DNA of 64,000 nt from Asaia bogorensis (GTDB lineage: Bacteria; Pseudomonadota; Alphaproteobacteria; CACIAM-22H2), in NCBI GenBank assembly GCA_945901855.1, contig CAMDLT010000010.1, positions 1 through 64,000 on the forward strand. The letters run 5' to 3'. The notes below the pieces were generated by a model, which had not been told where the DNA came from, did not search any database, and worked only from the letters and a program-made list of their open reading frames with translations. Positions 9,974 to 24,010 of this stretch are shown one piece after another. Position numbers and translations under genes: made by a program. How positions within the stretch are numbered: position 1 is the first letter of the stretch; the number at the start of each line of letters is the position of its first letter.

Positions 9974-10900
9974 CTAATCTTTACGCTGGGCAAGCCATTT
10001 GAGCGTTCGCTCGAGCCCCGCCTCCAGCAAAACCTGCGGCGCCCAGCCGACGCGGCGCAGCTTGGTGCAGTCGCTCAGCGATAGGCGGATATCGCCCGCC
10101 CGCGGCGGCGCAAAGATCGGATCCGCAGCCGAGCCCGCCAGACGCTGCAAGGTCTTGGCAAGATCGAGCACGCTGGTCGAAACGCCTGTGCCGACATTGA
10201 AGATCGGGGCGTCGGTGCTGGCAGCTTCGAGCCCGGCGCGCAAAGCGGCCACGACGTCCGCGACATAGACGAAGTCGCGCGCCTGGGCGCCGTCGCCAAG
10301 AATGGTGCAGGGTTGGCCCGCTTGCACGCGGGCCGCGAAGATCGAGATCACGCCCGAATACGGGCTCGCCGGATCTTGGCGCGGCCCAAAGACGTTGAAA
10401 AACCGGAACCCTGCCGTCGGCACGCCATGCACTGTTCCCGCCACGCGGGCGTGCAATTCGCAGCCGAGCTTGTCGGCGCCGTAGGCCGAGAGCGGGCGCA
10501 CGGCACTGTCTTCGCGCAGCGGCAAGTTCGGGTTGTCGCCAAAAACCGCCGCCGACGAAGCGTAGACGACCGGAATGCGCCCGCTGCGGCGCGCCGCATC
10601 GAACACGCGGATCGCGCCCGTCAGGTTCGCGCGGTGCGTCCCCGCCCAATCTTCGTTGCTGCGCTGCACCGACGCAACCGCCGCCAGATGCACAATCCCG
10701 TCCGCCCCGTCGGCGGCCGCATCGACCGCACCCGCATCGCCCACGTCGCCCGCCAAGAACGCGACGCGCGGATCGAGATTGGCGCGGTTTCCGGTCGACA
10801 GATCATCGAGCACGCGCACGCGGTCGCCCGCCGCCAGCAAAGCGTCGCACACGTGCGAGCCGATAAAACCGGCGCCGCCGGTCACGAGGATTGTCGCCAT
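9974..10900 (-). CDS. NAD-dependent sugar epimerase (GalE/PelX-like), downstream end of the pel operon
   Basis: MATILVTGGAGFIGSHVCDALL, SAYGADK (YxxxK), FFNVFGPRQDP, RDFVYVADVV of extended SDR epimerases; 3 nt from pelG. Confidence 0.85.
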   Translation of the reverse strand: MATILVTGGAGFIGSHVCDALLAAGDRVRVLDDLSTGNRANLDPRVAFLAGDVGDAGAVDAAADGADGIVHLAAVASVQRSNEDWAGTHRANLTGAIRVFDAARRSGRIPVVYASSAAVFGDNPNLPLREDSAVRPLSAYGADKLGCELHARVAGTVHGVPTAGFRFFNVFGPRQDPASPYSGVISIFAARVQAGQPCTILGDGAQARDFVYVADVVAALRAGLEAASTDAPIFNVGTGVSTSVLDLAKTLQRLAGSAADPIFAPPRAGDIRLSLSDCTKLRRVGWAPQVLLEAGLERTLKWLAQRKD

Positions 10901-10902
10901 GC

Positions 10903-12294
10903 TCAGTCCGCTTTCTGCACGCGAATGGAAGGGTTGGACTCGATGAAGGAGAGGTACGGCAAGTTCGCCAGTTTGCGCAGCAGGATCGTGTAGCCGATCA
11001 TGAAACTGGCGAGGGCCGACAAGAAATAGCCGTAGCCGTACCAAGCGAAGCCCGCAACGAGCGTACCGAAGGTGAGGACCGTGTTGGCGATCAGAAAAAA
11101 GACGACCAGCTTGAGGGCCAGCATGCGCAGATCGAAATACGCGAACACGATCAGCACGAACAAAAGCAGCGAATGGAACAAAGCGCCCAGCACGCCCAAA
11201 CGGAACATGCCCATTTCCGCGAAGCTGACACCAAGCGCCACGAACAGCGTCGGCGCGAGCAGGATCGCCAGATACGTGAGCGCCCCCTGCAGCACGATCA
11301 GCACGCGGAATCCCTCGCCCACCGTGTCGATCAGATCGAGTTGGGCGGCGCGGATGCGGGCCCAAGTGCCGTGCTTGCGGATCTGGTCGAAAAAAACGAG
11401 ATAGCGGTCGAAGAACGCCGTCTCGACGATCAGCACGAACATCGCCATCGCGGGCAGGATCGTGAGGTAGGCCAAAAACATCGCGCTGTCGTAGAGCGGA
11501 TACGACACCAGCACGCCCGCCTCGACCGTGCGGCCCGGCTCGAGCCACATGATCCATTTGTCGACCCAAATCGCCAGATTGTAGGCGAGCGCAGTTGCCG
11601 CCAGATCCCAGTAGCGGCGAAAATACGCCACGAACGCAAACGGCTTCAGCACGGGATAGGGATATTCAGCGAAAATCCGCGCGATCAGCGCAAACACCAC
11701 GATGCAAAGTCCGATCGTGAAGCCCGACAGCAACCCCGCAGCGCCATAAGGCGCAAGCGCCAGTCCCGCCGCCAACCCGCACGCCATGCCGACGATGAAG
11801 GCGAAGGTGATGGCGCGAAAATCCTTGAGCGTGGACAAGAACACGCCCGCCACCCACAACGCCGCCGTCGCTAGGTAGCTCGCGATCGCAGCAAGACGAA
11901 CCTCGAGCGTGGCGTCGATCGCAAAACCGTAAAGACCGATCGCCAGCGGCATCTGCGTGGCCGCCATCACGGCCAAGGCGCCCAGCAGCATGCCGGGGCC
12001 TTCGCTGACGTTCCGCTCGTAGATACGGTCGGCCAAATACCGCGTCACCACGATCGCCACGGGGCCAGCGAGCGTGAGCGAGAAACCAAAATTGTAGATC
12101 ACGACAATGCGGAAAATCGCGACGTCGGAATCGTCGGCAAGCCCCCCGGCCATCACCGACAACGTGCCGAGCGACAGGATCGTGACGAGCCACGGCCCGG
12201 CAGCCACGAGCGTCGCGTGCATGAATGCGCGCAGCGTGCCGAGCAGATCGTCGCCCTTGGCAAGTTCGCGCAGCGAAAAACCGATGCCCGCCAT
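10903..12294 (-). CDS. pelG: PelG-family membrane polysaccharide transporter
   Basis: MAGIGFSLRELAKGDDLLGTLRAFMHATLVAAGPWLVTILSLG is a characteristic PelG N-terminus; multi-TM; directly follows pelF. Confidence 0.92.
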   Translation of the reverse strand: MAGIGFSLRELAKGDDLLGTLRAFMHATLVAAGPWLVTILSLGTLSVMAGGLADDSDVAIFRIVVIYNFGFSLTLAGPVAIVVTRYLADRIYERNVSEGPGMLLGALAVMAATQMPLAIGLYGFAIDATLEVRLAAIASYLATAALWVAGVFLSTLKDFRAITFAFIVGMACGLAAGLALAPYGAAGLLSGFTIGLCIVVFALIARIFAEYPYPVLKPFAFVAYFRRYWDLAATALAYNLAIWVDKWIMWLEPGRTVEAGVLVSYPLYDSAMFLAYLTILPAMAMFVLIVETAFFDRYLVFFDQIRKHGTWARIRAAQLDLIDTVGEGFRVLIVLQGALTYLAILLAPTLFVALGVSFAEMGMFRLGVLGALFHSLLLFVLIVFAYFDLRMLALKLVVFFLIANTVLTFGTLVAGFAWYGYGYFLSALASFMIGYTILLRKLANLPYLSFIESNPSIRVQKAD

Positions 12295-13835
12295 CAGGCC
12301 GCCGCCCCCGCCGAACGTTGGCGCGTCGGCGCATCGCGGCAGGACTCGTAGAGCTCGCGGTAAATGCCGTCGATCGTCTTTTTGTTGTAGTAGAGCTCGA
12401 CGCGCCGCTTGATCGCGCTAGCGCAGCGTTCGTGCCATGCCTTGTCGCGAAGCAGGCGCACGAGGGCCCGACCCGTCGCGACCGAATCCGCAAGCCCCGT
12501 GATCTCGCCGCCGGGACCGAGTTTTTCAGTTTCGTCCGAGCGACCTTCGATCATTTCGCGGCACGCCCCAACGTCGGTCGCAACGGTCGGGACGCCCGCC
12601 GCACCGCCTTCCAAAATCACGAGCGGCTGGGCTTCCGATACCGATGTAAGCGCCAGCGCGTCGATCCGCCCGAGCCAGTCGGTCAATTTCTGTCGACCCA
12701 TAAATTTGAGCGTGCCCTCGAGCTTCAACAGCTTCACGAGGTCGCGGCATTCGGCGGCGTAGGCGGGATCTTCGTCCTCCGGGCCCAGCACCAAAGCTTC
12801 GAGATCGGGCACGTCGCGCAAAGCCACCGCCACCGCGCGAATGAAGGTTTTAACGTCCTTGATCGGCACGACGCGCCCGATCAGCGCCACGGTCGGTCGG
12901 CGGCCTTTGTCCGCGCGCGGGACGGCTGCGTAGAGGTCGTAGTCGATGCCGTTGGGAATGACGCGCAAAAGGTCGGACGCAGCCCCGTCGCGCCGCTGCA
13001 TAGCCTGGTTGCCTTCGTAGAGCGTCACGATCGCGTGCGCCGACGAATAGACGCAGCGCGAATAGGCCACGAAGGTGTCGATCCACAGATCTTTGAGCGT
13101 GCGTCGTCCGCGCTCGACCGCCAACATGCGCAATCGGCCCGAAGCGAGCCAATCGGCCATCGTGATTTCGATGCGCCGTTCGTTCGTGTAGATGCCGTGC
13201 TCGGTGACGAAGCACGGCCGCCCCGTTTCGATCGACGCCCGCGCGGCCATGAGCCCGGCATAGCCTGTCGAAATCGTGTGGTAGACGCGCGCTTGCGGCA
13301 GCGGCGCCAGCAAAGCCGCGAACAGGCCGCCAAGCTGGGCGCGCCAAGTCCAAAAATAGTCGAGGAACGAGCCGTCCGGAACGCTGCCATGGTACATGCG
13401 CACGAGCGCGTTCCAGGCCGTCTGTGAATTCAGCAGCGCGTCGGCGCCGATGCGTCCGCGAAAGGGGGCCAGCAAGCGCACGACCTCCGCCAGATCCTCG
13501 ATGCCGCCGCGCGCCTGGATCGCCAGCAGCGGCGGCTCGAGGGCCGCAAAGAGCTTGGCAAGCCCGCGCACGAAGCGCGGCCCTTGCGCCGGCTGCTGCA
13601 GATAGACGTGCGTAAGGCCCACGACATTTTCGGCGATCGGATATTTGAATTCGCGTTCCTTGCGGTCGGCCAACAGCGACACGCAATGGAACGTCAAATG
13701 CGGCTGCGCCCGAATGAGGTCGTTGACCCAGGTCGACACGCCCCCCGAAATGTAGGGATAGGTGCCCTCGAGCAGCAGGCAGACATCCGCGCTTGGGAAG
13801 GTCGAAAAATCTTTATTGGGCAGCCCTCCGTTCAT
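12294..13835 (-). CDS. pelF: PelF-family GT4 glycosyltransferase
   Basis: SADVCLLLEGTYPYISGGVSTWVNDLIRAQPHLTF is characteristic of PelF; retaining GT C-terminal region with SEAQPLVILEGGAAGVPTVATDVGACREMI. Confidence 0.94.
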   Translation of the reverse strand: MNGGLPNKDFSTFPSADVCLLLEGTYPYISGGVSTWVNDLIRAQPHLTFHCVSLLADRKEREFKYPIAENVVGLTHVYLQQPAQGPRFVRGLAKLFAALEPPLLAIQARGGIEDLAEVVRLLAPFRGRIGADALLNSQTAWNALVRMYHGSVPDGSFLDYFWTWRAQLGGLFAALLAPLPQARVYHTISTGYAGLMAARASIETGRPCFVTEHGIYTNERRIEITMADWLASGRLRMLAVERGRRTLKDLWIDTFVAYSRCVYSSAHAIVTLYEGNQAMQRRDGAASDLLRVIPNGIDYDLYAAVPRADKGRRPTVALIGRVVPIKDVKTFIRAVAVALRDVPDLEALVLGPEDEDPAYAAECRDLVKLLKLEGTLKFMGRQKLTDWLGRIDALALTSVSEAQPLVILEGGAAGVPTVATDVGACREMIEGRSDETEKLGPGGEITGLADSVATGRALVRLLRDKAWHERCASAIKRRVELYYNKKTIDGIYRELYESCRDAPTRQRSAGAAA

Positions 13836-14962
13836 GCCGCGCGCTCCCGGCCCCACAGGCGGGCCGCATCGCGCAAAATCGGATCGGCGGCCTCGTCCTT
13901 GTCGAGTAGCGGCGCCAAGCGCTGGGCAACCGCGCGCAAGCGATCGAAGGCGCGCAACTGGAACAGGCACTCGAGATACCATATCGCGCCGGTCTGCGGC
14001 AGGCGCCCGCCTTCGGCCGAACGTGCCAGCAGCGCGCTTGCCTCGGCATGGCGGCCGACCCGCACAAGCAGTCGGCCTTTGGCAAGTTCAAGTGCGCCAT
14101 TGTCAGGCGTGCGTTCGAGCGCCGCCGAATAGAGCGCCAGCGCGCGCGCGCGGTTTTCGTCCTGGCGGTCCGCATCGAGCAGCCCCGTAAATGCGTAGTC
14201 GTCGTAGTGGCGTGCGGCTGCGCCGATCAGCGGCGCATCGCCCGGTCGGCGAGCCATCTCCTGCTCGAGATCGACCGATCGGCGCACGAACCGCTGTTCG
14301 ATCTGGGCCACCGCCGTTGCAGCCTGCACGCGGATCGCAGGCTCCTCATGCGCCAACGCAGCTTTGAGGGCGGGCGCAAACGCAGGCTTGAAATAGGCCG
14401 CAATCAGCGCCAGCAAGGCTTGCTTCTGGTCGAACGTGCCAAACGACAGGATGTCGGTAAACGAGGAGATCGAACGCGCCGACGCATCGTCGTCGGTGCC
14501 GCTCGCCACGATTTCCTGGAACAACGCACGGGCGCTCTCGACCTTCTGTTCGGGAAACAAGGCGGCATACCACTCTTCGAAATCGGTGGCGTTGCGCCGG
14601 AAAATCGCGAACAGCACCGCGCACAGCGCCGTGCCGCAGGCCCCGAACGGTCCCGCGAGCGCCGCCGATCCGAGCAGCAGATACGGCAGCCGCAGATCGC
14701 GCTTGCGTCGGGCCACCGTCCAGCACCACAGGCCGAGAACGGCAACCGCACCGGCATGCACGCCCAACGCCGCCAACGCCCCGACATGCCCCGCGATCGC
14801 CGCATACCAGCCCACAGCGATGCTGGCGGCAGCGGACGATCCCAGCAGAACGGTTTCCGCGACCGGCGCGGAATCCGCAAGCGACGACAAGCGCGCGAGT
14901 GCTGCCGCGTGTTCGCGGTCGCGTCGTCCCTGCCGTCGTTCGCTGGTTGCGCTCTGACTCAA
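13832..14962 (-). CDS. pelE: PelE-like membrane protein with TPR-type C-terminus
   Basis: Two hydrophobic segments, then helical repeat region; position between pelD and pelF. Probable TTG start at 14962 overlapping the pelD stop. Confidence 0.75.
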   Translation of the reverse strand: MSQSATSERRQGRRDREHAAALARLSSLADSAPVAETVLLGSSAAASIAVGWYAAIAGHVGALAALGVHAGAVAVLGLWCWTVARRKRDLRLPYLLLGSAALAGPFGACGTALCAVLFAIFRRNATDFEEWYAALFPEQKVESARALFQEIVASGTDDDASARSISSFTDILSFGTFDQKQALLALIAAYFKPAFAPALKAALAHEEPAIRVQAATAVAQIEQRFVRRSVDLEQEMARRPGDAPLIGAAARHYDDYAFTGLLDADRQDENRARALALYSAALERTPDNGALELAKGRLLVRVGRHAEASALLARSAEGGRLPQTGAIWYLECLFQLRAFDRLRAVAQRLAPLLDKDEAADPILRDAARLWGRERAA

Positions 14963-15948
14963 GATTTCCCGGCCTCCCGCCCAGCGCGCGCCGCGTTGGC
15001 GTAGGCCGTGCCGATCCATTCGCACAGCAGGCGGAAGTTTTCGATGGTCGTGGCCGTAAGATCGAGAAAACCCATCTCCTCGATCTTGAGCATGCCGATC
15101 ACTTCCTGGGTATCAACATTGAGAAGCGGCGCGGCGAGAAGCCCTTCGCCGCGCAGCACGGCATCGTCGGCAGCCAGAGCGGCCACGAGCGTTCGCCTGG
15201 AACCGACGATCGCCTGGAACAGCGCTGACTGGCCGTCGAAGTCGGCTGCGTTGCGCGTCTCGTTTTTCTCCCAGCCCTCGTTCATGGCCATGACCAGCGT
15301 TTCGCCGCGCAGCAAAAACAGCGAATAGCGTCTTGGCGCCATAACCGTGCGCACGAGGTCGCCAACGCCTGCCTCGATCTGGTTGACGGCCATCCGCTCG
15401 ATGCCTTTGGCCGCATTGTAGATCGCAAAGACCGTGCGCAGCTGGCCGGCAACGCGCGCTTCCAGCCCTTCGCGCCGCAGATCGAGTCGCCGGTAAGCAG
15501 CAGCGATCACATCCTCGCGTCGGCGCGACTGGGCGACGTCCTCGCGCAATTGGTCGCGCTCGCGCCGCATCCGGCCCTGCAACTCGCCGAACAGCACGGC
15601 TGCAATCGCCCAGAGCAACGGATCGAGCGTGGCGCGCAGCAGCCAAGCGTACAGGTCTTCGTCGAAGCCCTGGGCGGGCGTATTGCCGATGAGCAGCGCC
15701 GCACTGGCCGCCGCCACCGCAACGAGCGCCTCGCTGGTGCCGTACTGCACAGCACACAGCAGCACGATCGCCCAAAAAGGATGCGGTTTGACGTCCGCGA
15801 ACCGCGTGAAATCAAAAAACAGCAAGTCGATCGCCAGAGCGGAACCAAGGAACAGCGTAATTTCGACCAGCGCCGACTGGCGCAAGCCAAACAGCATTTT
15901 GGGTACGACCGGTGCAGGCGCTGTTGGGATAGAGGCTACATCCGCCAT
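14959..15948 (-). CDS. pelD: PelD-like inner-membrane protein with 4 TM and GAF domain, lacking the C-terminal degenerate GGDEF
   Basis: N-terminal TM block (LVEITLFLGSALAIDLLFFDF...), GAF-like region ending VIGMLKIEEMGFLDLTATTIENFRLLCEWIGTAYANA, stop shortly afterwards (329 aa). Confidence 0.82.
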   Translation of the reverse strand: MADVASIPTAPAPVVPKMLFGLRQSALVEITLFLGSALAIDLLFFDFTRFADVKPHPFWAIVLLCAVQYGTSEALVAVAAASAALLIGNTPAQGFDEDLYAWLLRATLDPLLWAIAAVLFGELQGRMRRERDQLREDVAQSRRREDVIAAAYRRLDLRREGLEARVAGQLRTVFAIYNAAKGIERMAVNQIEAGVGDLVRTVMAPRRYSLFLLRGETLVMAMNEGWEKNETRNAADFDGQSALFQAIVGSRRTLVAALAADDAVLRGEGLLAAPLLNVDTQEVIGMLKIEEMGFLDLTATTIENFRLLCEWIGTAYANAARAGREAGKS

Positions 15949-17528
15949 GTCAAAAATCCGCCGATGGTGATTGAAGCTGAAGAATCGCGGCCGACGCCGC
16001 GACCATAGAATCCGCGCAGCCCCGCTTGAAGCGCATCGTCGCCAAGCCAAGAAAGACTGGCCCCCGCCAACGGCCCACCACGATGGCCGTAGCGGTCGTA
16101 GGCTGGACCGGCCGAAACATCCGCGACGACCGGCCACTGGCTGTCGAACGCGCGCCGAAAATCGAGCATGTAGCCCGCCAGCAGCCCATGCACTTCGCGA
16201 TAGCGCAGCGGCACAGGCCGGAATTCCGTACCGGCTGCGGCCGGATCTTGCGCCCGCACGATGCGGAACGGGTACTCACCGTCGAACACGTACGCAAGCG
16301 AGGCTCCGTTTGCCAGACCATCGAGCGGCAAGCGGGCTTCCCCGTCGAGCGTGGCAGAACGCGCGCCATCGACATAGCCGGGCAGACTGTAACGGCTGAA
16401 ACCGCCACGCGCGCGCACCGACAAACCAACGAGCCACGGCCGCACATACTCGGCAGAAATCCGATCGCGCGTACCGTCGGCGACAATGCTTTCGGAAAAA
16501 TCCCAATAGGGTTTGGCAATTTCAATGCCGAGGCCATAGCGCGCCAAGTCACCGACGACTTCGCTCGAAAATCCAGCCCCCAGCCGGGCGGCATTGGCAA
16601 AGAGCTGGCCCTGCAAGCGCCCGCCATCCTCGTTGCGCCGCACAAGGCCGATGGCGCCGCGCTGGCGTCCGCCTTTGAAGGACGACGAATACCCGTTTGG
16701 GCGGCGCACGCCGGGGCTGTCGAGCAGCACCGTGTCGAAAACCGCCGTCGCGCGCCACACATCGCTGATCGGCGCTTCGATTGCCGTGCCGAGCGTATAG
16801 CGTTTTTCGGCCGCGCTGGTGCGGCGATACTCGGGTTCGACGCGCAAGCTTGGCGCATCGGCGCGCGACAACTCGGCACGGGCACGCGCGATCTCGGCAT
16901 TGTCGGGATCAAGCAGGTCGGCGCGCGCGAGCAAAGCGGCCGCGCGCATCGGCCGACCGATCTGACGCTCGACGGCCGCCCATTGCTGAAGCGTATCGGC
17001 ATCGTTGGGATCTTGCTCGGCCAGTCGGGCGAGGCGCCCGCGCGCAATGTCGCTCTTGCCGGTCTGCGATTCGAGACTCGCGCGCAGCCGCTCGAGCCGA
17101 CGCTCGGCGCGCTCCACCACGATGCCGTCGGGTGCGGTTTCGTCGGCCACCGGCCGCTCAGGCACGCGCAGCACCAGAACGACGCTCTCGTTCGCGCCCG
17201 TCCCCTCGCGGCGCATCGTCGCGACGGTGCCGGACGTGCCAACAATCAGCAGCGTATCGAAACCCGTGCTCGCCGTTTCGACGAACCGGGCGAGGTCGCG
17301 CTGCAGATCGCGCGCCTCGAGCGCCGCCACAGGACCGTCGAAACGCAGCAGCGCTTCGCGCCCGCTCATCTCGAGGCGCACAGCAACGGGCGGGACCCAT
17401 GCGATGCGCACATTGGCAAGCGGCCCCTCGCTCGACCAGGTAAGCTCCAATCGCACAGGCGGCGTCTGTGCCAGAACGTCGCCCGACGCCAGCAGCGCCA
17501 GCAACATTGCGAACCAGACGCGCCTCAC
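15936..17528 (-). CDS. PelB-like outer-membrane porin as a separate gene
   Basis: Signal peptide, short TPR-like stretch, then amphipathic beta-strand-rich C-terminus ending ITIGGFLTWRM; sits where the PelB porin domain is expected. Confidence 0.75.
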   Translation of the reverse strand: MRRVWFAMLLALLASGDVLAQTPPVRLELTWSSEGPLANVRIAWVPPVAVRLEMSGREALLRFDGPVAALEARDLQRDLARFVETASTGFDTLLIVGTSGTVATMRREGTGANESVVLVLRVPERPVADETAPDGIVVERAERRLERLRASLESQTGKSDIARGRLARLAEQDPNDADTLQQWAAVERQIGRPMRAAALLARADLLDPDNAEIARARAELSRADAPSLRVEPEYRRTSAAEKRYTLGTAIEAPISDVWRATAVFDTVLLDSPGVRRPNGYSSSFKGGRQRGAIGLVRRNEDGGRLQGQLFANAARLGAGFSSEVVGDLARYGLGIEIAKPYWDFSESIVADGTRDRISAEYVRPWLVGLSVRARGGFSRYSLPGYVDGARSATLDGEARLPLDGLANGASLAYVFDGEYPFRIVRAQDPAAAGTEFRPVPLRYREVHGLLAGYMLDFRRAFDSQWPVVADVSAGPAYDRYGHRGGPLAGASLSWLGDDALQAGLRGFYGRGVGRDSSASITIGGFLTWRM

Positions 17529-20500
17529 GACCGGCCCTCCAGCACACTGCGCGCTTCGGCGGTGCGACCAAGTTCGATCAGCACGCCCGCATAGTCGGCG
17601 CGCAGATCGAGGTTCCGGGGCTGCTCGCGCAGCAGTTGCTTGAACAGTGCCAGCGATTCGTCGAACTTGGCCAAACGGTAGAGCGCGTAGGCCTTCGCCG
17701 CGCGCGCAAACACCGGCGCTTGGTCGAGACGGTCGATTGTCGCGATCGCAGCCTCATGGTGCGGTTGCGCAGCCGCGCGATCGCGCAATCGCACGAGCGT
17801 TTCGGCAAATGCGTAATGGACCTCCCAGTCGACTTGGTTCGGTCCCGCAAGATAGCGCCCGAGCAGATCGCGTGCGCGCGGCGAGTCGCCGTCGGCAAAG
17901 GCTTGGAGCCCTGCAGCTCTTTGGCCTGCAGGCCGCGAAGGCTCGAGCAAGTAGAGCCGGTCGAAAGCTTGGCGCGCCAAATCGGCGCGTCCAAGAGCTT
18001 GCGAAAGTTCGCCTTGACGCTGCACCAGATTCGGATCGGATTCACGCGGGATGCGCGCGGCCAGCAGGCGCGCTGCCGCCACCCTGTCGCCCACAGCGAT
18101 ATAGGCTTCGCTTGCGGCGACGGTTGCGGCGCCGCCCGCGCGATCGGGCCTGGCAGCATCGGCTTCGAGCAGCGTTGCCGCGCGCCGCGGCGCGCCGGCA
18201 TTAAGCAAAACCTGCACCCAGCCCAAGCGCACGGCTCCGTCAGCGGCACGCGCCTGGGCTTCGATCCAGTCGAGTTGCGCAGGCTCCGGACGCGGCCCCA
18301 TCAAGAATAGCACCTGTTGCGCATCGGGTGCGTCCGCCGGACCACCTTCGGCCATCGACTGAAACAGAGCGAGCGCCGCCGCTTTGTCGCTCAGATCGAG
18401 CAGGCGAAACCCGAGGGCACGGCGCTGGGTTGGCGCCAATGCCGTCTCTTGCGCACGACGCAGCAAACTTGCGCGCAATTCGTCGCGCAAATTGGCGCGC
18501 TCGAGAGCGATATCGAGCGCATCCTGCCACTCACCGCCGAAATCGCTTGCCATGCGACGCAGCGCGTCCAGCGAGCGGGCGGGCGCAACGTCCAGCAACG
18601 CATATGCCGCTTGCGCCCGCGCCCCGCGCGCCAAGCTCGCGTCGCTTGCCAGCCCTTCCAGCATGTCGACGAGCGCCCCTTGGCGACCGGCCGCACGCGC
18701 CGCCGATACATACGCGCCGAGCCATTCGTCGGGCCCGCGGCGCGCGCGGCGCGCGAGTTCGGGCAACGCGTCGTCCCAAGCGCGCTGGTCGATCAGCGCA
18801 TAAAGCGCTTCCTCGCGCGCGGTCGGCGGCAGATTCACGTCGCCCAGTCGCGTCCGCCAATAGCCGCGCAATTCGGTTCGCGCATTCGCATCGGTTCGCG
18901 CGGTTTGGGCCAGCGCTTCGCGGTAGAGAAATTCGATTTCGGCAGTGCCCTGTTCGGCGCGCAAATCGCGCGCTTGTGCCAGCGCCTCGCCCGACCGACC
19001 AGCCGCAAGCGCCGCCTGTGCCAGCCGCAATCGGGCCGCCAATGTCGGCCCTTCGAAGGCCAGTAAGCGCCTAGCGGCAGCCAGTTGCAGGATTGCCGAT
19101 TTGGTATCGGCGCCGATGAAAAACAGATCGTTGAGCACCTGGGCGGGCAGTGCCATCGCGTTGGTATCGAGCCAGCCAGCAACGCTGCGGTCGCGCCCTG
19201 CCATCGCATTTGTGAGCGCCCAGCCGATCGCTGCCGCGCGCGAGTTCGGACGTTCGAGGCGCAACCGCTCGAACGTTGCGGCGCCGTCGGTCGCGCGCCT
19301 CAGTGTCAAATAAAGTTGCGCCATGTCGCCGATCGCCGTTTCGGGCAGGTCAGCTGCGTTTGCCACGCTTTCGAGAATGCGTAGCGCACGCGCAGGCAGA
19401 TCTAGCTCGGCCAGGATGCCGACCAACGCCAAGGCGGCATCGAGCGCGAGGGGCGTTTGCCCGCGTGCCTGATCGCCCCCCTGCGCAGCCGCCCGATCAA
19501 CTGCCCGCAACGCCTGCGCGCGGTCGCCTACCGCCAGATACATGCGCGCGGCCAGCACAGGTTCCTCCGCCAAACGCGTCGGATCGATCCGACGCGCGAT
19601 CGCTTGCAGCAGGCTCGACTGGCCGCGGTCCAGCGCTTGCGCCACAAGCTGCAGCAACGCTGAAGTCGCAAGCGCATCGGGATCGAGCGCGGCGGCCAGC
19701 GCTACCGCCGGGGCATCGCGGCCGGATGCGAAACCGAATTCTACGAGCTGGGCCAAATGGCGCGGCTGAAATCCCGCTGTGCCGCGTGCAAGTTGCTGAT
19801 CGAACAGGCGTCCCACCAGCGGCAGGGACGGCGCGTCGGCTGCGACGCGCATCAGCGCAAGATTGACGTCCGCATCCGCGCCCAGCCGCGACTCAATCGG
19901 CGCCAAGGCGCGGAGCGCATCGGCTGCCCGGTCTTGGCCCAGAAAAGCCACCGCAATGGCACCGACGATCGGCGGCATTGGCGCTGTCGCCAATCTTGCT
20001 TGTGCCAGTGCAACCGCGCGGGCCGGGTCTGGCATTTCGAGCGCTACGACGATCGCAAGTTCGAGCACGCTTGGACCGAGCGCGTTGGGAAACCGTTCGA
20101 CCAAATCGGCGAGGGTTGCGCTGGCCTCGGCAAACGCCCGGCGACCCGCCTGCATTTGGGCCAGCTCGACAAAATCGGCAGGCTCCGCATCGGGCAGCGC
20201 GACGAGTTGGATCAAGCTCTCGATCTGCAGATCGTCCTCGCCCGCGAAACTCGCGAGCGCCGAAAGCTCTCGCAACCCAGCAAGCGTTGGCTCCAGGCGC
20301 GTCAGTTCGACCAGGTTCGTGCGCCGCACCGCATCGCGCCCTGCCCAGCGCAGATAGATTTGGAGCAGTTTGCGGGTCTCGATCGTATCGGCGCGTTCGA
20401 GCGCCCCGTCGGCGAGCAACCCGTCGAGCATGGCGATCGCGCGATCCAAATCACCTTGCTGGGCATAAAGACGGGCAAGCGGCGCAACCGTTGCGACTTG

Positions 20501-20686
20501 GGTGCCGTTTTTTGCCAGACGCGCTTCAAACAGCGCGAGCGCTTGGGTGTACTCGCGGTCGCGCAAATGCATCGCAGCGCGCTCGGCCTCGCCCGGCAGG
20601 ATCAGAAAGCTTGCAGCCAAGCTTGCGCCGGCAAGTGCGCACACCAGCGCGTACTGGCCTGCCATGCGCTGATAGAGGCCACTCAT
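17525..20686 (-). CDS. PelB-like TPR scaffold protein as a separate gene
   Basis: Single N-terminal TM (YALVCALAGASLAASFLIL) followed by about 1000 aa of TPR-like helical repeats; no beta-barrel end; overlaps the porin gene by 4 nt. Confidence 0.78.
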   Translation of the reverse strand: MSGLYQRMAGQYALVCALAGASLAASFLILPGEAERAAMHLRDREYTQALALFEARLAKNGTQVATVAPLARLYAQQGDLDRAIAMLDGLLADGALERADTIETRKLLQIYLRWAGRDAVRRTNLVELTRLEPTLAGLRELSALASFAGEDDLQIESLIQLVALPDAEPADFVELAQMQAGRRAFAEASATLADLVERFPNALGPSVLELAIVVALEMPDPARAVALAQARLATAPMPPIVGAIAVAFLGQDRAADALRALAPIESRLGADADVNLALMRVAADAPSLPLVGRLFDQQLARGTAGFQPRHLAQLVEFGFASGRDAPAVALAAALDPDALATSALLQLVAQALDRGQSSLLQAIARRIDPTRLAEEPVLAARMYLAVGDRAQALRAVDRAAAQGGDQARGQTPLALDAALALVGILAELDLPARALRILESVANAADLPETAIGDMAQLYLTLRRATDGAATFERLRLERPNSRAAAIGWALTNAMAGRDRSVAGWLDTNAMALPAQVLNDLFFIGADTKSAILQLAAARRLLAFEGPTLAARLRLAQAALAAGRSGEALAQARDLRAEQGTAEIEFLYREALAQTARTDANARTELRGYWRTRLGDVNLPPTAREEALYALIDQRAWDDALPELARRARRGPDEWLGAYVSAARAAGRQGALVDMLEGLASDASLARGARAQAAYALLDVAPARSLDALRRMASDFGGEWQDALDIALERANLRDELRASLLRRAQETALAPTQRRALGFRLLDLSDKAAALALFQSMAEGGPADAPDAQQVLFLMGPRPEPAQLDWIEAQARAADGAVRLGWVQVLLNAGAPRRAATLLEADAARPDRAGGAATVAASEAYIAVGDRVAAARLLAARIPRESDPNLVQRQGELSQALGRADLARQAFDRLYLLEPSRPAGQRAAGLQAFADGDSPRARDLLGRYLAGPNQVDWEVHYAFAETLVRLRDRAAAQPHHEAAIATIDRLDQAPVFARAAKAYALYRLAKFDESLALFKQLLREQPRNLDLRADYAGVLIELGRTAEARSVLEGRS

Positions 20687-22935
20687 GGCCGGACCTCGGC
20701 CAAGGCAACTGCGACGCGCCGTCCGGCCGCAGCAGGCAGCGTGAACAAGAGCTCACCTCCCGCATTCGCGCTTACCGTCGCAAAGGGACGGCCATCGAGC
20801 GACAGCGCGTAATTGCGGCCCGGCGCCACGCGCCACAGCATTTCGCCCGGCCCAAAACCTTCGGCTGCAAACGAAAACGCGGCTGCCGTGTGCTGCAGTT
20901 CGGCGACTGCCCAGCGCGAGTGTACGAGCATCGGCAGCGACGGTTCGCTCCCGCCCAGCGCCACGATCGGCGTTTCGTGCGCCGGATCAAGCGCGACATA
21001 GAGCGCGCCCGCATCGCGCCGGTAGCCGAGCACGCCCGACGAGCGGACGAGATCGACGCGGGCACTGTCGTTGGGCGCATCGAAGCGCAAAGTCGCCAGC
21101 GCGCCGCGATTCTCCACGCGCCACGTCCGCTCGGCCACCTTCGCGATGCGCGCCGTGTAGAAGCCAGAGGCGATCTCGGCGTAGCGCGACGCGGCAACGG
21201 GCGCGATTTCGAGCGCGCGCACGAACGCGACATTGTCGCGTATTGCCTGCAAGGCAGCTTCCTTTTCGCCCGAGTAGATATGGTAGTAGAGATTGACCGG
21301 GGTCAGACGCTTCGGCGCGCCCGTACGCTCGACCGTTTCGACCCAGTCGCGAAAGGCAAAAAACCGGTCCGTCCAAAGATCGGTGTACGTGTTTTCGTTC
21401 GACGACGGCGCGTAGATCTGCCAATACGCGCCGACGCGCCGCCCGATCGGCGCCACGTAGGAAACGGAATTGAAGTCGCGGTCGAAGCGCGTATCGCCGC
21501 CGTTGATATGGCCCAGCCCCGCCTGTTCGGCAGCCGCAAGCGCGCCGGCCGACGGCAACGTATTGCCGGACCATTGCACGATGCGGATTCTTTTGCCTGT
21601 CGGCGCAAGCGTTTCGAGATATCTAGCCGCACCGACGATTTCTGCTTCGAGCGAATAGGGCTTCTGCGCGTATGCGCGCGGCGTGTTGTAGGCGCCGGCT
21701 TCTGCATATTGCCCGTCAAATTCCATTTCGAGCTGGCGATCGCCGCTCGCGCCGGAAAACCGCCGCACCAAACGCGCGACAACGGCGGCGTACCATGGCG
21801 GTTTTTCATGGCAACCGGGAAAGCGCGCGGCGATCGCGCGTTCGATCGCCGCCGCATCCGGCCGCTCGAAAAATGGCCAGTCAAAGGGATGCGTCCAGGT
21901 ATGGCTGGCGGCTTCGACCTGCGGCAACGAAAAAGCGCGCCGGGCGACTGCGCGGCCTTCCTCGGTACCGCACCAGTCGGGATGCAGATCGGCCGCGATC
22001 GGCGCCACCGTCACGGGCAGATCCGGGAACGGCGCAATAATCTCGTCGAGCACGACGGCAGAGGCAAGTTTGCGCTGGCGGCTCCACGGCAAAATCTGGG
22101 TGACGTCGCGCCAGCCGTCGCCGTCAATATGGCTGAAATAGAGGCGCCTGCCGACAAACGTTGTCGTATCGGGGACGGGTGCTTCGCTATGCGCTAAGGC
22201 GCGTGCCAGAAACGCGAACGGGTCGATGCGCCATTGGCGGCGATTCAAGTCGGGTTCGAGAAAATGCGAAAAGCCAGCTGCAATCAAGCCGCCCGTCGGG
22301 CCCGCCATCACAACATGGCTTTCGCTGTCGGGTTGGCCGCGACGTCGCAGGACGAGCGAGGAGACCATGCGCGTATCGGTCGGCCGCCAGACCGCAAACG
22401 GGGCGACAGGCAGGTCGAGCTTGCGTTCGTAGTCAAGCATCGCGGGCTCGCGCCGGTCGATATCGACGTCGATGGCAAGGCGTGCGGGCGCTGCTCCGCG
22501 CGAGAACCCGGCGGCCGCAAAAAGCGCGTTGGCCTCGCTATTCGGAATTCCGCCGCCGCCATTGCGCGCGCGCAGGAACGCAGGCTCGCCAATCAACACG
22601 AAGCCGAGGCCGCGCGCGACGGCCGCGCGCAAGAATCCGGTCGCATCGGCCGGATCCGGCACGCTTTCGGATTGCAGCCACGCAACGACCGCGCGCGCAT
22701 CCGCAAACTCGGCCGGATCTGGCAGCTTGGCCGCAAGGTCCAGCGGTTGGGCGATATAACCAAGCCGGTTGAGCGGCATTTCGAGCATCGTGTGCGCCAA
22801 CGTATCCCGCCAGCGCGGCGTGACGCTCGAGTCCCACAGCACCAGCACTTGGCGCGCGTGCGTTTGCGCGTCGGCCGGTACGGACACGAAGAACGCGAGG
22901 CATAGCGCGGCGGCAAGGAACGTTCGAGAAATCAT
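20683..22935 (-). CDS. pelA: PelA-like polysaccharide deacetylase protein, without the N-terminal hydrolase domain
   Basis: Signal peptide; deacetylase motifs YFSHIDGDGW and ASHTWTHPFDWPFF as in the PelA deacetylase region. Confidence 0.85.
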   Translation of the reverse strand: MISRTFLAAALCLAFFVSVPADAQTHARQVLVLWDSSVTPRWRDTLAHTMLEMPLNRLGYIAQPLDLAAKLPDPAEFADARAVVAWLQSESVPDPADATGFLRAAVARGLGFVLIGEPAFLRARNGGGGIPNSEANALFAAAGFSRGAAPARLAIDVDIDRREPAMLDYERKLDLPVAPFAVWRPTDTRMVSSLVLRRRGQPDSESHVVMAGPTGGLIAAGFSHFLEPDLNRRQWRIDPFAFLARALAHSEAPVPDTTTFVGRRLYFSHIDGDGWRDVTQILPWSRQRKLASAVVLDEIIAPFPDLPVTVAPIAADLHPDWCGTEEGRAVARRAFSLPQVEAASHTWTHPFDWPFFERPDAAAIERAIAARFPGCHEKPPWYAAVVARLVRRFSGASGDRQLEMEFDGQYAEAGAYNTPRAYAQKPYSLEAEIVGAARYLETLAPTGKRIRIVQWSGNTLPSAGALAAAEQAGLGHINGGDTRFDRDFNSVSYVAPIGRRVGAYWQIYAPSSNENTYTDLWTDRFFAFRDWVETVERTGAPKRLTPVNLYYHIYSGEKEAALQAIRDNVAFVRALEIAPVAASRYAEIASGFYTARIAKVAERTWRVENRGALATLRFDAPNDSARVDLVRSSGVLGYRRDAGALYVALDPAHETPIVALGGSEPSLPMLVHSRWAVAELQHTAAAFSFAAEGFGPGEMLWRVAPGRNYALSLDGRPFATVSANAGGELLFTLPAAAGRRVAVALAEVRP

Positions 22936-23798
22936 CGCGGTTCCGGCACCACGCGATCAAGCTCTACGGTTGCAACATAAGGCGCAAACCCAAGGTCGCG
23001 GACTTTGGCGTAGATTTCGCGAAGTTTGGCCGCATCTTCCGGCGGCCAATATTCGAGCGCGAGCAAACGCAACTTGGGATTGCGCTGGGCCGCCGCCTTC
23101 AGCACGGCGGTTTCGCTTCGATGCTGGTCGTCGTTTGCAAGGCGCGGCAGAGCGTTGGAAAAATCCCAAGCGGTGACAAGCGATTCGGCGAGCACCATGT
23201 CGATCGCGCCCTCGACTGCCGGCAAAATGTCGTAGCCGCGATTGAGCACGACGACCGCCTGCGGGTAGCGCCGCTTGATGGCCCGCACGAGGTCGATCGT
23301 GGCGAGCGTCGCGCCAGCAAATCTGGCACGATCGCGCCGCTCAAGGTCTGTCGCGGTGTCAATTGTGTCGAGGAAGACGCCCTGGAAGCCGCGCGCCAAA
23401 ATCGCCGGAACCAGTTCGTCGAGCACGCGCTGGCGCCAGCGCTTGTCGCGCACATCGACCGCAAAAGCGCCGGGCCATGTCGGGTTCTCGTAGACCAAGA
23501 TGCCCTCGCGCTCGACTTCGGCGAAATAGCTGCGCGTGCGATGCACTTCGCCGAGGCTCAGATAGCCGACCGTCAGGCCCTTGCGCGCCTGGATCGGCGC
23601 CAAGTCAGGGTGCTTGTCGCTGTCGAACACCACCATGTCGAAAGCGTCGAACGCATCGCTCGAGAGTGCGTCGCCGTAATAGACCGCCCAACGAAATGGC
23701 TGGGTCTGTCCACGCACAAGCGCGAGAAACGAGGCGAGCACCAAAGTAACTCCAAAAAGCAGCGCAAATACCCGCCTTGCAGGGGTACAAAAAATCAT
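22932..23798 (-). CDS. PelA N-terminal-type glycoside hydrolase (GH166-like TIM barrel) as a separate gene
   Basis: N-terminal signal anchor then WAVYYGDALSSDAFDAFDMVVFDSDKHPDLAPI, LTVGYLSLGEV, GFQGVFLDTIDTATDLE, VVVLNRGYDILPAVEGAIDMVLAES; directly upstream of and overlapping the deacetylase gene. Confidence 0.82.
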   Translation of the reverse strand: MIFCTPARRVFALLFGVTLVLASFLALVRGQTQPFRWAVYYGDALSSDAFDAFDMVVFDSDKHPDLAPIQARKGLTVGYLSLGEVHRTRSYFAEVEREGILVYENPTWPGAFAVDVRDKRWRQRVLDELVPAILARGFQGVFLDTIDTATDLERRDRARFAGATLATIDLVRAIKRRYPQAVVVLNRGYDILPAVEGAIDMVLAESLVTAWDFSNALPRLANDDQHRSETAVLKAAAQRNPKLRLLALEYWPPEDAAKLREIYAKVRDLGFAPYVATVELDRVVPEPR

Positions 23799-23899
23799 GA
23801 AAACGCGTCCCGTTGCGGCGATCGAGCCGAATTGCGAATCGACTGCGATTCTATCATTTTTCGCGAGTCGCAAGACCTGCTTGTGCGTTTTGACGCGGT

Positions 23900-23918
23900 G
23901 ATTTGCAAAATGCAAATC
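23900..23918. promoter_or_regulatory. Perfect inverted repeat GATTTGCA-AAA-TGCAAATC in the divergent pel / 24011 intergenic region, candidate operator
   Basis: 8-bp arms, 3-bp spacer, read directly from sequence; about 100 bp from either start codon. Confidence 0.5.
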
Positions 23919-24010
23919 CACTGTCATCTAATCCTGTGCGAGCGAGCCTTTACGCGACGCCGACAAGCGACTAAGATTGCTCTTTGAACAGTGTGGGGTT
24001 CCGTCGAAAA

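Follow-up and report, generated by a model that had tools for sequence, protein, structure and literature searches.

A conserved PelD variant that ends after its GAF domain in the Pel operon of Asaia bogorensis

In the 64,000-nucleotide stretch of Asaia bogorensis DNA considered here (the window: positions 1 to 64,000 of contig CAMDLT010000010.1, assembly GCA_945901855.1), the pelD gene of a Pel operon encodes a protein of only 329 residues, which ends after its GAF domain and lacks the degenerate GGDEF domain that usually follows. In the PelD proteins of Pseudomonas aeruginosa and Bacillus cereus this domain binds cyclic dimeric guanosine monophosphate (c-di-GMP) and is needed for activity. 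The short PelD is genuine, not a sequence error, and it is under purifying selection; gene trees indicate that the domain has been lost at least three times independently. In the environmental bacteria that carry such a protein, control of the Pel machine probably does not run via PelD-bound c-di-GMP.

The coordinates of the gene (Table 1) are those of the preliminary description, which gave no strand; pelD lies on the minus strand. Its product, with the C-terminal end TTIENFRLLCEWIGTAYANAARAGREAGKS, contains GAF_3 as its sole Pfam domain (residues 197-315, E 1.5e-10). The hydropathy scan reveals four hydrophobic segments (approximately 22-51, 58-81, 69-93 and 101-121); so simple a scan lets the second and third run into each other, and the AlphaFold2 model separates them as helices 57-69 and 71-86. 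The model (mean predicted local distance difference test score, pLDDT, 77.5) places a long stalk helix (99-184) after the transmembrane (TM) helices and then a GAF fold, whose last helix (299-327) has nothing beyond it. Pfam, hydropathy and AlphaFold2 thus agree with the earlier reading of a 329-residue protein with four TM helices and a GAF domain at its end. At the sequence level, phmmer with the window PelD alone gave no match in the PDB, PelD chains included, a profile of short PelDs returned only chance coiled-coil matches, and a mixed GAF profile matched only a phosphodiesterase GAF. Fold comparison was therefore needed to place the protein, and Foldseek matches the GAF part of the model to GAF domains including that of P. 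aeruginosa PelD (4etx; E 4e-4, 168 columns). Over the TM and GAF regions the window protein is homologous to full-length PelDs; with the long PelD from Rhodospirillales bacterium TMPK1 it shares 48-49% identity (L012/L021). The four TM helices, the stalk, the GAF domain and the neighbouring pelE are all those expected of a PelD; the C-terminal degenerate GGDEF domain with its RxxD motif is missing, which makes the protein a variant of PelD and not a canonical member of the family.

The absence of the tail could not be judged from PF16963, the family against which an alignment had initially been proposed. This family scores below its cut-off in all 386 sampled genomes of the class, tail-bearing PelDs among them; it misses alphaproteobacterial PelD tails, so that its absence here is not evidence. 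A profile was built instead on the C-terminal domain of long relatives, and it detects the tail in the positive controls G036, G065 and G072 with E values from 5e-47 to 2e-23. Applied to the window genome (94% complete), it finds ordinary GGDEF proteins only and no PelD-type tail, and applied to the operon in any frame it yields no match, hence neither a GGDEF remnant nor a frameshifted extension. The reported loss of the domain was thereby confirmed, as was the overlap with pelE, whose TTG start lies within the TGA stop of pelD; this junction reads GTGA in two relatives. The assembly is fragmented (82 contigs), which would favor an assembly or frameshift artefact as the cause of the truncation. 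However, the end point is common to six species, the overlap with the pelE start is conserved and no frame holds a tail, so that an artefact is practically out of the question; the relatives already refute it. A frameshift or pseudogene origin of the short gene was considered as well and is ruled out by the junctions of the relatives, the frame searches and the substitution rates.

Within the genus of the window, pelD is present in six of eleven species and takes the short form in every one of these six, so that the suggested check in relatives came out in favor of the earlier reading. The other five proteins share 67-76% identity with the window PelD and stop no more than about 15 residues past the GAF domain. 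No other genus of the order (23 species in all) has pelD. The ratio of nonsynonymous to synonymous substitution rates (dN/dS) of pelD in close pairs is 0.09-0.14 (dS 0.29-0.38), near the 0.06-0.09 found for pelE, pelF and pelG in one such close pair. These values bear on the possibility that the operon is decaying, with the truncated PelD as a non-functional remnant and no Pel produced. Such decay would be in line with the five of eleven genomes without pelD, several of which are incomplete, and with P. aeruginosa, where R367, D370 and R402 of PelD are required for c-di-GMP binding and for pellicle formation and binding-dead PelD is inactive (PMC2170427). The low dN/dS of pelD and of all other tested pel genes, the intact overlapping reading frames and the single end point in six species argue against it, and decay is regarded as improbable.

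The wider distribution of the short form was followed in 46 pel loci from a scan of named genomes and in the class sample of 386 genomes, which holds 20 PelDs, the only short ones being the two of the window genus. Most PelDs surveyed have 440-490 residues. In the profile of long PelDs, the tail matches solved GGDEF domains, with its R and D aligned onto the RxxD of diguanylate cyclases, and the GAF part matches P. aeruginosa PelD. Most other alphaproteobacterial PelDs retain the GGDEF-fold domain, usually with RxxD intact; in the tree set of 58 PelDs, 33 keep RxxD, 14 have a tail without it and 11 have no tail. In the tree of the TM and GAF regions, the short PelDs are found in the window genus (support 100/100), in a clade of Roseomonas type (98/84), in the metagenome-assembled genome L052 and, doubtfully, in Caldithrix. 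Four changes are needed to explain this tree, and well-supported branches force three of these; the Caldithrix protein (L059, 311 residues, no tail) was left uncounted because of its very long branch. The approximately unbiased (AU) test rejects a single ancestral loss of the tail, at p 0.0006 for 10 rows and, once long branches are taken out, at p 0.003 for the remaining 9. The tree of PelF and PelG gives the same picture, with the RxxD-bearing TMPK1 beside the Roseomonas-type clade. The losses are counted on gene trees, and transfer of whole operons between species, which is possible, would not lower their number.

The Roseomonas-type clade is nested in a group of ten that already lack RxxD, which indicates that the motif disappeared there before the domain did. 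When the family around a Roseomonas-type genome was searched, a single additional PelD came to light, long and without RxxD. The TM and GAF columns that RxxD-bearing PelDs conserve are nearly all retained in the short forms, and a short clade departs from them at only four positions. Variation of the tail takes other forms as well: in the lineage of L088-L090 (G104, G310 and G218) the tail is kept and MSPMV replaces LRxxD, another loss of the site, and in L085 (G086) a PelD of 627 residues has a 304-residue tail that apparently holds more than one GGDEF-like unit. In TMPK1, a chemoreceptor-like gene lies between pelD and pelE (L021:11346-13178).

The RxxD-less clade comprises Roseomonas-type bacteria, Microvirga and Caldimonas. 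Its pel loci (L020, L022, L028, L030, L033, L038 and L046) contain no PelA-type deacetylase, and none was found in the seven genomes of this clade that were searched, under conditions where the controls G036 and G413 match at E 1e-130 or better. The Pel of this clade might be fully acetylated and neutral.

Compared with P. aeruginosa PelD, the window protein shares the TM, stalk and GAF arrangement, the GAF fold match, the partner genes and a pelE directly downstream, whereas the GGDEF domain that carries R367, D370 and R402 is absent. The loss of this domain is not new as such, since a PelD without GGDEF has already been described in streptococci, where it is put down to these bacteria having no c-di-GMP (PMC7112168, PMC12345266). 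In the four-class PelD scheme relayed by PMC12345266, the PelD of Streptococcus intermedius belongs to class IV; like the window protein it has no GGDEF domain and keeps the TM and GAF regions, and Pel is made in that species in a PelD-dependent manner (PMC12345266; also PMC7112168). In contrast to class IV PelD, with its N-terminal degenerate SDR domain, the window PelD has about 20 residues ahead of the first TM helix and no SDR match. The main difference, however, is that streptococci are without known diguanylate cyclases, while the window genome has GGDEF enzymes. The PelD of Streptococcus thermophilus JIM8232 likewise consists of TM and GAF regions only, and pel-dependent biofilm has been reported there; that case concerns one strain, and its authors ascribed it to transposon activity (PMC7112168), whereas here the short form is conserved in the genus. 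The Roseomonas-type PelDs (Dankookia, Paracraurococcus, Paeniroseomonas and R. nepalensis) are also short (332-346 residues) and without GGDEF, but their loss is independent and occurred in a clade already devoid of RxxD, whose searched genomes gave no PelA deacetylase.

To judge from their enzymes, these bacteria still have the messenger at their disposal. The window genome contains GGDEF stretches and EAL stretches, five of each, and a PleD-like protein with the motif GGEEF harbors one of these. In the other alphaproteobacterial genomes with a short PelD, nine of which were searched (G004 left out), there are 6-34 GGDEF matches each; canonical GGDEF proteins are kept in every short-PelD genome searched. 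Taking into account these persistent enzymes, the conservation of the TM and GAF regions in short forms and the independent losses, it is rather likely that the short PelD serves as an assembly scaffold only, that direct gating of the synthase by c-di-GMP has been lost and that control is exerted through expression or through the GAF domain. The operon would then be a working Pel operon with PelD reduced to its scaffold half. The short protein would anchor in the membrane, probably dimerize through the helical stalk and, to judge from P. aeruginosa, hold the PelF glycosyltransferase at the membrane together with PelE and PelG. The degenerate GGDEF domain would have been removed at the linker after the GAF domain, leaving a synthase that c-di-GMP does not gate through PelD any more. 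The enzyme would be active whenever it is expressed, or some ligand of the GAF domain would control it. We infer from the sequence comparisons that Pel is made, that c-di-GMP is not bound by the short PelD and that synthesis is independent of it at this step. Since assembly of the PelDEFG complex in P. aeruginosa is unaffected by c-di-GMP binding (PMC8461298), the scaffold and receiver roles of PelD appear separable; how PelD-bound c-di-GMP switches on Pel synthesis is still an open question (PMC8461298).

Several points weigh against a scaffold-only PelD. The P. aeruginosa mutants that cannot bind c-di-GMP form no pellicle (PMC2170427), so that the machine might be expected to be switched off by loss of the domain unless some other change compensates. 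The GAF domain could itself bind c-di-GMP or another nucleotide, and PelE, PelF or PelG could be the target of another receptor, even an uncharacterized one. The latter two points amount to an alternative in which c-di-GMP still controls the synthase post-translationally, by a trans-acting receptor on the Pel complex or by GAF binding. It fits the persistence of GGDEF and EAL proteins, and in P. aeruginosa the GAF residue R161 touches the bound c-di-GMP, although it is non-essential (PMC8461298). In the window genome, however, both PilZ domains above the cut-off (L013 and L014) are C-terminal parts of chemoreceptor-like proteins, and Pfam and locus analysis gives no support for such a receptor within the operon, none of whose proteins has a PilZ, GGDEF or EAL domain in the Pfam scan. 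Continued post-translational control by c-di-GMP is accordingly considered somewhat unlikely. The two options originally offered, independence from c-di-GMP at the PelD step or use of another receptor, are supported as a pair, and either fits the data.

The surrounding operon consists of nine tightly packed genes on the minus strand (Table 1) and is recognizable as a Pel operon by PelF, PelG and the hydrolase and deacetylase domains of PelA. PelA is split over two overlapping genes (20683-23927), the hydrolase gene first and the deacetylase gene second, and pelB is likewise split over two genes (15936-20686). The pelE/pelF junction is an ATGA overlap. No pelC is visible in the operon, and no gap is left where it would fit.

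Table 1. Genes of the Pel operon in the window
Gene	Coordinates	Strand	Description
PelA-type GH114 hydrolase	22932..23927	-	matches P. aeruginosa PelA 6-246
PelA-type deacetylase	20683..22935	-	matches P. aeruginosa PelA 589-854
pelB-like gene 1	17525..20686	-	1053-residue TPR protein
pelB-like gene 2	15936..17528	-	TPR repeat, then putative outer-membrane barrel
pelD	14959..15948	-	329-residue membrane protein; 4 TM, stalk and GAF, without GGDEF domain
pelE	13832..14962	-	TPR protein; TTG start overlaps pelD stop
pelF	12294..13835	-	GT4 glycosyltransferase, 513 residues; NF038011 472 bits (cut-off 100)
pelG	10903..12294	-	exporter, 463 residues; PF16933 401.5 bits (cut-off 29)
sugar-nucleotide 4-epimerase	9974..10900	-	PF01370; final operon gene

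A literature search that lacked most subscription journals gave no report of a repeated, and in one lineage stepwise, loss of the GGDEF domain in Gram-negative bacteria with persisting c-di-GMP enzymes. There is about an even chance that the Pel synthase of Alphaproteobacteria whose c-di-GMP signalling is live has been repeatedly uncoupled from the messenger, in one lineage by loss of RxxD and then of the whole domain, leaving a scaffold that is messenger-free or responsive to a GAF ligand. Natural PelDs without the receiver half show which part of the protein is indispensable, and the existence of three kinds of related PelD, with RxxD intact, with RxxD lost and with the domain lost, makes the switch testable by domain removal or swap. 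The presence of a pel operon does not equate to c-di-GMP-gated Pel synthesis, even in cells that have the messenger.
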